NCBI RefSeq assembly: GCF_009708075.1
Contig: NZ_WMBT01000006.1
Coordinates: 1-64,000 of the forward strand
DNA length: 64,000 nt
DNA from: Paracoccus lichenicola
Lineage (GTDB): Bacteria > Pseudomonadota > Alphaproteobacteria > Rhodobacterales > Rhodobacteraceae
Reading direction: 5' to 3'
Position numbers and translations under genes: made by a program. Positions 13,650 through 29,698 of the stretch are shown here, one piece after another (position 1 is the stretch's first letter; each line of letters begins with the position of its first letter). The notes under the pieces are model-generated. The model searched no databases. It was not told the origin of the DNA and was given only the letters and a program-made list of their open reading frames with translations.

Positions 13650-13987
13650 GTCAGGCCTGTTCTTGCAACGTCAGCGCCAACATGGTCCAACGCGGCCCCC
13701 GCATCAACCACCCGCCGCAATTTGCGGCACCGGGCCACCGGCGTTGTGTCCCTCGCCCATTTTTGCAGCGCGGCGTGATCGCTAACGCCGTTTGGCCGTC
13801 ACATTTTTGTCATAGATTGCAGGACACAAGCGGCAGGTTGCCGCGCCAGTCATGCGATTGCTGCATGGCAGCATTCCCGAATGATCCATTGTGCAGCCGC
13901 AGCATTAGCGCCATCTTGGGTCCATCGAAACAGCGCAAGGCCAATCCGGGTCAGCGCAGATGCCAGACGCCGAAAAGGAAACACATC
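13650..13987. other. Intergenic region between mrp and the DUF1127 gene
   Basis: This 338-base gap separates two divergent genes and must hold both promoters. In R. sphaeroides the equivalent DUF1127-CcsR transcript is driven by the heat-shock-type factors RpoHI and RpoHII. I looked for a matching motif and found no convincing -35/-10 pair. A T-rich stretch at 13800-13825 is the least GC-rich part. No gene was recognised. Confidence 0.4.
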
Positions 13988-14212
13988 ATGGCTGCCATCG
14001 CCAACACCCACAACGCCGCTGCCGCTACCGGCTTCGCTGGCCGTCTGATGGCTGCGATCCAGCACATGCAGGAAAACCGCGCCCGCCGCGTGATCTATCG
14101 CCAGACGGTTCGCGAACTGAACGCCCTGACCAGCCGCGATCTGGCGGACCTGGGCATCAACCGCGCGATGATCGGTCGCCTGGCCCACGAAGCGGCCTGG
14201 GGCACGAAATAA
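13988..14212 (+). CDS. DUF1127 small RNA-binding protein, CcaF1-like
   Basis: A 74-residue basic protein with a DUF1127 domain (about 30-66: RRVIYRQTVRELNALTSRDL, then ADLGINRAMI) after an Ala-rich N-terminus. The ATG follows an AAAAGGAAAC ribosome-binding site. In R. sphaeroides the DUF1127 protein CcaF1 is co-transcribed with the CcsR1-4 small RNAs, binds RNA and influences sRNA maturation and turnover. Here the gene is directly followed, 10 bases after its stop, by 14 CcsR-like hairpins. The functional assignment is by family and context. Confidence 0.85.
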   Translation: MAAIANTHNAAAATGFAGRLMAAIQHMQENRARRVIYRQTVRELNALTSRDLADLGINRAMIGRLAHEAAWGTK

Positions 14213-14382
14213 GAATAAGCTATTCCGCCCCACCCTCCTCCCAGGGGCCGGAACGGGCGGCATCCTCACTCCTCCTCCCAGAGGATGCCGCCGAAACAGC
14301 GCAGGAACCCTTTCTCCTCCCTGGGGTTTCAGCGACAGGCGGCGACCCCTCCTCCTCCCTCGGGGTCGCCGCACACGAAACA

Positions 14383-14402
14383 TAGCCGCCCCATTTGCGG
14401 CA
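14383..14402 (+). repeat. Linker hairpin repeat, copy 1
   Basis: TAGCCGCC-n-TTTGCGGCA forms a short GCCGC/GCGGC stem between the fourth and fifth cuckoo hairpins. Near-identical linkers recur at 14490-14509 and 14671-14690. It lacks the CCUCCUCCC loop and may be a spacer or processing signal. Confidence 0.55.
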
Positions 14403-14489
14403 ACGAGATACGGCCCGTCCTCTCCTCCCCTCGGGCAGGGCCGTTTGCGGTGAAGCCTTTCCTCCTCCCCGGCTGAACCGCACCCCACA

Positions 14490-14663
14490 TAGCCGCCTCA
14501 TTTGCGGCACCTGATGCGACGGACCTCTCCTCCTCCCATGGTCCGCTCGTTGGCGGCAACGGCCCTCCTCCTCCCTGGCCTTGCCGCACCCCATACGCGG
14601 CCCCTCCCTCCTCCCTGGGCCAGCGTTACGCGGCGGCGCCCTCCTCCTCCCTGGCGCCGCCGC
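14490..14663 (+). repeat. Four-hairpin module, copy A of a tandem duplication
   Basis: A linker hairpin followed by cuckoo hairpins 7-10. The same order, with nearly the same bases, repeats at 14671-14844. Shared landmarks include GATGCGACGGACC, GGTCCGCTCGTTGGCGGCAA, ACGCGGCCC and CGGCGGCGCC. Differences fall mainly in loops and in paired compensating changes. Confidence 0.8.
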
Positions 14664-14670
14664 CCCTCCA

Positions 14671-14844
14671 TAGCCGCCTTGTTCGCGGCACCCTGATGCG
14701 ACGGACCCCTCCTCCCATTGGTCCGCTCGTTGGCGGCAACGGCCCTCCTCCTCCCTGGCCGTGCCGCACCCCAAACGCGGCCCCCCCTCCTCCCTGGGCC
14801 AGCGTTCCGCGGCGGCGCCCCTCCTCCTCCCTGGGCGCCGCCGC
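14671..14844 (+). repeat. Four-hairpin module, copy B of a tandem duplication
   Basis: Second copy of the linker plus four hairpins (11-14). Compared with copy A, the last stem has gained one C on the 5' arm and one G on the 3' arm, so it lengthens without losing pairing, as expected for selection on structure. Confidence 0.8.
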
Positions 14845-14852
14845 TTTTCGTT
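14809..14852 (+). terminator. Rho-independent terminator formed by the last cuckoo hairpin
   Basis: GCGGCGGCGCCC (14809-14820) pairs with GGGCGCCGCCGC (14833-14844), a perfect 12-bp stem with a CTCCTCCTCCCT loop, followed at once by TTTTCGTTT. The fourteenth cuckoo hairpin therefore also ends the DUF1127-array transcript. Confidence 0.85.
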
Positions 14853-14907
14853 TGCAGCCCCGGAACCTGGCGATTCGCCTCGCGTTGAGAGGCGAAAGGG
14901 GATGGAC

Positions 14908-15126
14908 ATGAGCAAATTCCGCGTGGGCACGGCCGTCGAATGGGACTGGGGCAAGGGCACCGCCACCGGCACTATCACCGAATCCTTCACCGAACCGGTC
15001 GAACGCACCATCAAGGGCGCCACGATCAAGCGGAACGCCGATCCCGAAAACCCCGCCTACCTGATCGAACAGGACGACGGCGACCGGGTGCTGAAAAGCC
15101 ATTCCGAACTGCGCAAGGCGACTTGA
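14908..15126 (+). CDS. Small Tudor-like (DUF2945) protein
   Basis: A 72-residue protein starting MSKFRVGTAVEWDWGKGTAT and ending in LKSHSELRKAT, matching the DUF2945 / hypervirulence-associated Tudor-domain family: a small beta-barrel with the signature GxxVxWxWGxG at its start and HxSELRK near its end. Function in bacteria is unknown. The start at 14908 is preferred to an in-frame ATG at 14902 because the AAAGGGG site lies 6 bases before it. It sits just beyond the cuckoo terminator and needs its own promoter. Confidence 0.75.
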   Translation: MSKFRVGTAVEWDWGKGTATGTITESFTEPVERTIKGATIKRNADPENPAYLIEQDDGDRVLKSHSELRKAT

Positions 15127-15164: not shown

Positions 15165-15944
15165 ATGCTCAGCTATCAACATGCCTATCACGCGGGAAAC
15201 CTGGCCGACCTGCACAAGCACGCGCTGCTGGCCGCCGCGCTGGATTACCTGACGCGCAAGGACAAGCCCTTGTCCTATCTGGAAACCCATGCCGGGCGGG
15301 GCCTCTATTCCCTGGACGGGGCCGAGGCCGCGAAAACGGGAGAGGCGCGCGCGGGCATCCGGCGGGCCGAGGCCGAGGGCTGGCTGCTCCCCGATCACCC
15401 GCTGCTGGCGGCCCTGGCGCAAGTCCGCCGCAGTCATGGCCCATCCGCCTATCCCGGATCGCCGCTGATCGCCGCGCATTTCCTGCGCCGGGGCGATTCC
15501 GCGCATCTGGCCGAACTGCATCCCGCCGAACACGAGGCGCTGACCCATGTCGCGGGCTTTGCCACGCTGCACCGTCAGGACGGCTTCCAGATGGCGCAGG
15601 CGGTCTGCCCGCCGACCCCCCGGCGCGGGTTGATCCTGATCGACCCCAGCTACGAGGTGAAATCCGACTATGCCGTGATCCCGCGCCAGATCGGGCTGAT
15701 CGCGCGCAAATGGAACGTCGGCGTCATTGCGCTGTGGTATCCGATCCTGCCTGACGCCCGCCACGCGCCGATGCTGGACGCGCTGATGACCGCCCATCCC
15801 GAGGCCCTGCGGTCCGAGGTGGCGTTTGCCCCCGCCCGTCCCGGCCATTCCATGACCGGATCGGGCCTATGGGTGCTGAACGCCCCCTTCGGCCTGGCCG
15901 GGGAAGCCGCGCGGCTCGAGGCGATCTTCCGCCGCAACGCCTGA
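15165..15944 (+). CDS. rlmJ: 23S rRNA (adenine-2030-N6) methyltransferase
   Basis: A 259-residue RlmJ methyltransferase using SAM to modify A2030 of 23S rRNA. Family hallmarks are the N-terminal MLSYQHAYHAGNLADLHKH, the SAM-site region LETHAGRGLY (about 45-54) and the catalytic segment LIDPSYEVK (about 158-166), which corresponds to the DPP-like motif IV. Length fits. It stands alone between the DUF2945 gene and ftsB. Confidence 0.92.
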   Translation: MLSYQHAYHAGNLADLHKHALLAAALDYLTRKDKPLSYLETHAGRGLYSLDGAEAAKTGEARAGIRRAEAEGWLLPDHPLLAALAQVRRSHGPSAYPGSPLIAAHFLRRGDSAHLAELHPAEHEALTHVAGFATLHRQDGFQMAQAVCPPTPRRGLILIDPSYEVKSDYAVIPRQIGLIARKWNVGVIALWYPILPDARHAPMLDALMTAHPEALRSEVAFAPARPGHSMTGSGLWVLNAPFGLAGEAARLEAIFRRNA

Positions 15945-29536: not shown

Positions 29537-29698
29537 TGACCCACGGCCCGCGTTGACTCGCGGGCCATTCTTTTGTATCAGCCCCTGGATTCCCGGAAGG
29601 ACTGTCCCTTCCGGTCCCCGTCCATCACGGGGATCGCCCCCCGTCAGCGCGTCGCGCCCACGGGGGCCAACCTGTTTTGGACCGAAGGAGGCCCGGCG

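Follow-up and report, generated by a model that had tools for sequence, protein, structure and literature searches.

The locus behind a short DUF1127 gene of Paracoccus lichenicola raises three questions: what unit its long run of hairpins is built from, whether the size of the run is out of the ordinary, and what may control it. They were addressed in the window, the whole stretch of 64,000 nucleotides that was analysed, and in relatives from the genus and the family Rhodobacteraceae. The run is a real and conserved CcsR-type array of ordinary size, and a conserved operator may tie it to the storage of PHB. The anatomy, the structure and the conservation of the array and of the operator were established in this analysis, as was the presence of a phaR gene. 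The gene and the array are composed as follows.

13988-14212, + strand: DUF1127 gene of 74 aa, ccaF1-like (PF06568, E 2.5e-11, 43.6 bits, cut-off 23.3)
14223-14292, + strand: CcsR-type pair 1 (hairpins 1-2), from folds and an RF02791 match at 14219-14296 (42.2 bits, E 1.5e-8)
14300-14372, + strand: CcsR-type pair 2 (hairpins 3-4), RF02791 match at 14299-14377 (32.1 bits)
14384-14401, + strand: motif-less linker hairpin X1, from the fold
14410-14482, + strand: CcsR-type pair 3 (hairpins 5-6), RF02791 match at 14406-14486 (26.1 bits, E 8.5e-4)
14491-14508, + strand: motif-less linker hairpin X2, from the fold
14516-14587, + strand: CcsR-type pair 4 (hairpins 7-8), within an ar14 match at 14511-14631 (52.2 bits, E 3e-8), without a CcsR1 match of its own, paired by the A/B alternation
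14595-14663, + strand: CcsR-type pair 5 (hairpins 9-10), RF02791 match at 14588-14668 (31.3 bits)
14672-14689, + strand: motif-less linker hairpin X3, from the fold
14698-14767, + strand: CcsR-type pair 6 (hairpins 11-12), near-copy of pair 4 (69-nt repeat, 96%), within an ar14 match at 14693-14810 (43 bits), without a CcsR1 match of its own
14774-14844, + strand: CcsR-type pair 7 (hairpins 13-14), near-copy of pair 5 (40-nt repeat, 95%), RF02791 match at 14768-14849 (32.8 bits)
14809-14853, + strand: probable terminator, formed by the last hairpin and TTTTCGTTT, from the sequence and from comparable T-rich tails seen by eye

Fourteen successive hairpins were found on the + strand between 14223 and 14844, each with CTCCTCCC in its loop. 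The DUF1127 gene lies on the same strand directly 5' of the array, and the first stem starts 10 bases after its stop codon. A preliminary description of this DNA had counted 14 hairpins at this place and had divided their loops into 12 with the full motif and two with a variant; the motif count, the folds and the open reading frame at 13988-14212 bear out both statements. The full motif CCUCCUCCC was present in 12 of the 14 hairpins and CUCCUCCC in all of them, and two of the 14 copies of CTCCTCCC have a T in place of the leading C. The 12 copies of CCTCCTCCC in the window all lie within 14234-14831 on the + strand, where chance would give a mean of 0.95 and a maximum of 4 for the window (100 dinucleotide shuffles). 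Genome-wide, CTCCTCCC occurs 53 times in 3.7 Mb, and since the 39 sites outside the array are not clustered, a second array is absent from the genome.

When the array was folded with the motif held open, all 14 motifs were placed in hairpin loops. When all 656 nt of the array were left to fold freely, the motifs were unpaired with a mean probability of 0.97-1.00. The minimum free energy was -309.9, compared to -241.6 +/- 7.1 for 100 shuffles (z -9.6). Arms of the same hairpin paired with a mean of -20.2 kcal/mol and swapped arms with -11.0, and none of 10000 permutations equalled the observed value, in a test that is tilted somewhat toward the own arms because the borders were set by each hairpin's own fold. 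The mean identity of arms between different hairpins was 43%. The loop is constant, and the stems change as complementary pairs, i.e. they covary. Hairpin 6 has an internal loop. Three motif-less hairpins stand between pairs (14384-14401, 14491-14508 and 14672-14689); the preliminary description did not contain these, nor the pairwise unit, nor the operator upstream that is treated below. The spacing from hairpin to hairpin is 36-70 nt. A coding repeat was ruled out by the many spacings that are not divisible by 3 and by the covarying arms. The internal repeats, one of 69 nt with 96% identity between pairs 4 and 6 and one of 40 nt with 95% identity between pairs 5 and 7, give pairs 4-5 and 6-7 the appearance of a block that was duplicated recently.

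The unit of the array was sought in the order of its hairpins. When the hairpins were typed by their 3' arm, with a rule formulated after inspection of this array, a strict ABABABABABABAB was obtained. The same typing was applied to the Paracoccus set, which started from 75 loci (two of them from MAGs not labelled Paracoccus, and several genomes contributing two loci); L072 had no array, ten duplicates with the same type string and spacing were dropped, and 65 distinct arrays were kept. In these, 512 of 574 neighbours alternated between A and B, against one half expected from composition alone. The spacing from A to B was 38.1 +/- 2.0 nt (n 286), whereas from B to A it was 51.8 +/- 13.7 nt (n 226) with two modes near 40 and 68. 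An even number of hairpins was found in 52 of the 65 arrays. The mostly even numbers, the alternation and the 38-nt spacing within the pair indicate that the two-hairpin RNA, not the single hairpin, is the copied unit. Most of the longer linkers (81 of the 99 distinct ones in the Paracoccus set) contain the motif-less hairpin X, AGCCGC-N-GCGGC, with a paired change to GCCAC/GTGGC in two of them (L064 and L137). Among the remaining 18, some have different small hairpins and four have a mutated loop motif. Hairpin X is possibly a site for processing or for a protein.

A two-hairpin unit is also what covariance models recognise. RS0680a, a CcsR RNA of R. sphaeroides, has two stem-loops (PMC3927594), and the Rfam model CcsR1 (RF02791) spans 83 nt with two hairpins that have CCUCCUCCC loops. 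CcsR1 and ar14 matched the array repeatedly with E values from 1.5e-8 to 8.5e-4, all below the curated cut-offs. Five full-length matches to CcsR1 (1-83) fell on pairs 1, 2, 3, 5 and 7, in agreement with a two-hairpin unit of about 80 nt, and the best of them reached 42.2 bits against a gathering cut-off of 65.3. Pairs 4 and 6 were covered by the three-hairpin model ar14 (RF02344), with a best match of 52.2 bits against 58.8. At its curated thresholds Rfam gave nothing within the array; the matches came from the search by E-value, which also gave 6C, Scr3202 and rpfG in or near the array at chance level (E 0.12-0.6). The repeated matches, although below the cut-offs, support the earlier assignment to cuckoo/CcsR-type RNAs behind a DUF1127 gene, and the covariance search that had been named as its check scored five of the seven pairs with CcsR1 and found the other two inside ar14 matches. 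The array should therefore be read as seven tandem CcsR-type two-hairpin units. This alters a comparison made earlier, in which 14 hairpins were set against the four RNAs of R. sphaeroides and a 3.5-fold expansion was claimed: since a CcsR RNA contains two hairpins, the ratio is seven units to four.

CcsR1-4 and ccaF1 of R. sphaeroides share with the array the DUF1127 gene followed by tandem two-hairpin RNAs, the CCUCCUCCC loops, an RpoH-like promoter, which is predicted for the array, and a T-rich tail after the last hairpin. The Paracoccus array differs in its seven pairs instead of four and in its motif-less linker hairpins. With the cuckoo RNA family and the CIN1 locus, as these are described, the array has in common adjacent hairpins with a constant loop and free stems and the association with DUF1127. 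The family is described as having "2 - 4 hairpins" (PMC4504443), whereas the array has 14 in one run and would fit that description only after cleavage of its transcript into pairs. NfeR1/alpha-r14 of Sinorhizobium (RF02344) likewise has CCUCCUCCC loops; the accounts of it give three hairpins, an RpoD-type promoter and predicted targets that are mostly ABC transport systems, whereas the Paracoccus array stands behind DUF1127.

The size of the array, which had been thought unusual, was compared with that of its relatives. At least three motifs in a row were found in 120 of 125 genomes of the genus Paracoccus, in a search whose reversed-pattern control also matched in some genomes (up to 8), probably because C-rich loops fit the reversed pattern too. 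Array sizes in the 65 distinct Paracoccus arrays ranged from 3 to 20 hairpins with 12 and 10 the commonest, and arrays of 8-14 hairpins prevailed in the genus sample. Fourteen or more hairpins were present in eight of the 65 (seven with 14 and one with 20), and 13, 14 and 26 motifs were counted at other loci of the family. The suggestion of an unusual size was thus not upheld, and 14 hairpins, or seven pairs, is an ordinary number among the relatives. The array itself is one among many. The unit that multiplies is the two-hairpin RNA, and arrays of a size common in the genus exceed the two to four hairpins by which the family has been described.

Beyond the genus, the motif triple was found in 144 of the 394 family genomes sampled. 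RF02791 matched at E<=0.001 in 324 of the 394 and over its cut-off in only 17. A match below the cut-off also appeared in one of 14 control genomes, Thermus composti, so the weak matches to this model are not all specific. At L143 (429-1598, minus strand of the locus) 26 motifs stood in one run and 24 passed the strict stem filter; its repeating spacing of about 42, 47 and 51 suggests a three-hairpin unit in that genome. The second-best RF02791 match in the family (L182, genome G174) had 14 motifs forming seven pairs. Four other genomes of the same genus had four to five pairs per run, with one array broken over contigs among the genus's five.

Over the segment that matched, the DUF1127 protein shows 96% identity to its P. 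shandongensis counterpart and 93% to the one from P. fontiphilus. Of 67 array records from the family, duplicates counted, 63 had a DUF1127 gene no more than 700 nt upstream; L141, L144, L149 and L204 had arrays without a DUF1127 match upstream. The palindrome described below was nevertheless present upstream, and closer by, at L141 (10 motifs) and L204 (6 motifs). No array was found within 3 kb around the two other DUF1127 genes of the P. lichenicola genome. Downstream, a gene for a small Hva1_TUDOR protein (14902-15126) follows directly after the array and then a gene for an RlmJ-type methyltransferase (15165-15944), and upstream a gene for an NUBPL/Mrp-type ATPase lies on the opposite strand. 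T-rich tails after the last hairpin were also seen by eye in L031, L058, L079 and L080. A generic terminator scan gave 2 hits against 1.1 expected, no more than chance would.

The control of the array was approached with an alignment of 17 upstream sequences and with searches for the palindromes, which gave the following features.

13859-13873, no strand assigned: palindrome site 1, TGCTGCATGGCAGCA, with the core CTGC-N3-GCAG at 13861-13871; operator-like, fitting the PhaR consensus
13889-13917, + strand: predicted RpoH-like promoter, TTG at 13889-13891 and CCATCTT at 13911-13917, invariant or at least 90% conserved in the alignment
13891-13902, no strand assigned: site 2, GTGC-N4-GCAG, beginning 30 bp after site 1 and completing the double-site pattern

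The near-invariant parts of the alignment were site 1, TTGTG from 13889 and CCATCTT. With 13913 taken as A-12, the TTG occupies -36 to -34 and a T stands at -9, in agreement with the promoter rules of RpoHI and RpoHII (TTG at -35, A-12 and T-9; PMC3441632). A promoter of the RpoHI/RpoHII type has been reported for ccaF1-CcsR of R. sphaeroides (PMC10253847). A generic sigma70 scan of the DNA found no promoter. The double palindrome, CTGC-N3-GCAG followed 30 bp on by GTGC-N4-GCAG, straddles the -35 of the predicted promoter. The core of site 1 matches the binding sequence of R. sphaeroides PhaR, which is quoted as CTGC-N3-GCAG (PMC12542648).

Site 1 is conserved at this place. Of 44 Paracoccus-set loci, 40 had CTGCNNNGCAG in the 200 nt before DUF1127, compared with 0-3 for any other 200-nt bin, and three of the four loci without the strict site carry CCGC there. 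The loci from the rest of the family were not a random sample, as they came from 30 of the 144 genomes with the motif triple and from the 30 best of the 324 with RF02791. Eleven were dropped (nine repeats of one genome, the window itself and one repeated locus), which left 57 arrays at 56 loci, and one array with insufficient upstream DNA was excluded, giving n = 56. In 29 of these 56 the strict site 1 lay 300-450 nt before the first hairpin motif (control windows 0-2), and with one T/C or A/G change allowed it did so in 49 (control windows 1-9). Of 50 other family arrays with site 1, 46 had site 2 after it, at 30-31 bp in 41 of the 46. In the Paracoccus set it followed in 28 of 43 loci, one of the 15 others having been anchored on another upstream site, and TTGTG was retained in 42 of the 43.

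The double-site pattern occurs at five places in the genome and its reversed control at none. One of the five is the promoter of a phasin-like gene that neighbours phaR, and its two sites show the same distance of 30 bp. Three further places with the pattern were examined for open frames. The phasin match of this gene in Pfam is slightly under the cut-off (24.5 against 24.9 bits), and phaR itself is present with 96.9 bits to PF07879. The S. meliloti promoters of phaP1 and phaP2 have two copies of the PhaR site flanking the -35, and the PhaR motif of that species has a symmetric R-N-Y spacer (PMC12542648). The spacer of site 1 at the array is ATG, which does not have this symmetry, and ATG or ATA was found in 28 of 30 strict copies from the family loci. 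Site 2 of the array has a spacer of 4 bp, whereas both sites of the phasin promoter have 3 bp. This near-fixed asymmetric spacer and the longer spacer of site 2 make it possible that another factor binds TGC-N3-GCA. Exact or one-mismatch copies of the 15-mer are present elsewhere in the genome at C56:53429, C56:130851 and C56:99928 (L283, L284 and L285), and in L283 it precedes an ORF of 74 aa that is DUF1127-like by eye and has no Pfam match.

A small RNA under PhaR has a precedent. MmgR of Sinorhizobium meliloti is described as repressed by PhaR (AniA), with a PhaR-like site at its promoter and overproduction in a phaR mutant (PMC12542648), whereas PhaR control of the Paracoccus array is predicted from its sites alone. 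That PhaR controls the array promoter appears to us about as probable as the opposite. In a rival reading PHB plays no part, and the palindrome serves another regulator or is an upstream promoter element; we regard this as quite possible while rather doubting it. The almost fixed AT(G/A) spacer, unlike the sites at the phasin promoter of the same genome, would suit such a regulator, as would the absence of site 2 from about a third of the Paracoccus-set loci and the position of the exact copies at C56:53429 and C56:130851 beside genes of unknown or other function. Against it stand the fit to the quoted R. sphaeroides consensus and the same layout of two sites 30 bp apart at the phasin promoter beside phaR.

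Taken together, the most likely reading of the locus is a cluster of anti-Shine-Dalgarno RNAs gated by stress and by PHB, with the binding of PhaR predicted. An RpoH-type stress promoter would be gated by a PhaR-like repressor on the two sites straddling the -35. One transcript would encode the small RNA-binding DUF1127 protein, followed by the seven tandem two-hairpin RNAs of the CcsR type, and its last hairpin would double as terminator. RNase E, aided by the DUF1127 protein, would cut the linkers and give short RNAs, whose exposed CUCCUCCC loops may pair with Shine-Dalgarno sites of the GGGAGGAG type and block translation. Among the predicted targets are mRNAs that serve the uptake and breakdown of carbon compounds. 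With PHB accumulating, PhaR would come off the operator and the level of the RNAs would increase. Co-transcription, dependence on RpoH and processing by RNase E and CcaF1 are carried over here, by analogy, from R. sphaeroides, where processing of CcsR by RNase E, trimming by PNPase and a part of the DUF1127 protein are reported (PMC10253847, PMC7866481). The whole account, a DUF1127-CcsR (CIN1) operon with a PhaR-gated RpoH-type promoter and seven CcsR-type RNAs that block Shine-Dalgarno sites, seems probable to us. Its extension to the family, in which the operon would belong to the PhaR regulon and the multi-copy anti-Shine-Dalgarno RNA would be released only when stress and a full carbon store coincide, shutting carbon uptake and breakdown, we place just short of an even chance.

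The possible targets were searched with GGGAGGAG, the complement of the array loop, with perfect complementarity only. Genome-wide, 11 copies stand 3-12 nt ahead of an ATG, against 2 for the backwards pattern. One of the 11 is the opposite strand of the array and one starts a frame of 14 codons; the other nine start ORFs with lengths between 57 and at least 501 codons. Pfam matches that exceed the cut-off were obtained for seven of the nine (DcaP/porin, AMP-binding enzyme, CoA-transferase III, periplasmic binding protein, glucuronate isomerase, DctP and enoyl-CoA hydratase), among them two solute-binding proteins, and two have no Pfam match. AAGGAGG served for comparison, with 62 sites, of which 30 loci were taken and ORFs obtained for 29. 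Any strong Shine-Dalgarno sequence contains much of GGGAGGAG, and no functional enrichment is claimed for the GGGAGGAG genes. The predicted targets resemble those predicted for NfeR1, in which transporters abound, and accord with the part that CcsR plays in metabolism.

The repetition of one loop also admits readings in which the RNAs do not act on particular mRNAs. If the number of hairpins were itself selected, anti-Shine-Dalgarno decoys would flood the cell and broadly damp translation under stress. The constant loop with free stems suits this, as do the prevalence of 8-14 hairpins in the genus sample and the family array with 26 motifs; but sizes from 3 to 20 in the 65 Paracoccus arrays are what drift by unequal crossing-over of near-identical blocks would give, and perfect complements before an ATG are few, with nine ORFs. 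We consider selection on number unlikely, and a dose effect of array size, as proposed in the preliminary description, possible. CsrB-type protein sponges are multi-hairpin RNAs with one repeated loop motif, GGA. The array has the repeated loop motif in common with them, but its loop is C-rich. By analogy to CsrB and CsrA, the loops could titrate the DUF1127 protein encoded on their own transcript, or a different protein that binds C-rich RNA, instead of pairing with mRNAs, and one loop sequence with free stems across many hairpins is what is expected of a repeated protein-binding site. CcaF1 is reported to bind RNA, and its level to alter the maturation of CcsR (PMC10253847, PMC8307010). Yet an mRNA target of the CcsR RNAs, flhR, is described (PMC8307010), the loop is the complement of the Shine-Dalgarno sequence, and arrays without a DUF1127 match exist (L141, L144, L149 and L204), so that titration of a protein also appears improbable. 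Hardly credible is a decaying repeat of little function. Variable copy number and near-identical block duplications would fit it, but none of the 10000 permutations matched the arm complementarity, the motif run is present in 120 of 125 genus genomes, and the operator and DUF1127 are conserved alongside. By this conservation that reading is already largely refuted.

A literature search found no publication on a PhaR-like operator at the promoter of a DUF1127 array and none evidently pairing PhaR with this locus. It likewise found none on DUF1127-linked sRNAs in Paracoccus or on tandem-hairpin DUF1127 sRNAs in Rhodobacteraceae; Reinkensmeier and Giegerich 2015, Gruetzner 2021 and Billenkamp 2015 may say more. 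A conserved operator that fits the PhaR consensus on the array promoter across the family is a possible new link between carbon storage and this RNA. If PhaR binds, a long-studied stress RNA cluster would also be an output of carbon storage, and such control would suit the reported effect of CcsR on C1 metabolism and pyruvate dehydrogenase.

Extra DUF1127 copies with short arrays of five hairpins were observed in L034, L036-L039, L042 and L052, which are from Paracoccus and one Alphaproteobacteria MAG. These arrays have 3-5 exact motifs and a common spacing layout of 96-99, 40, 36-39 and 35-38. P. acridae has three DUF1127 loci. In the window, the sole match over a curated Rfam cut-off was the ffh sRNA (RF01793) at 29623-29674, with 62 bits.
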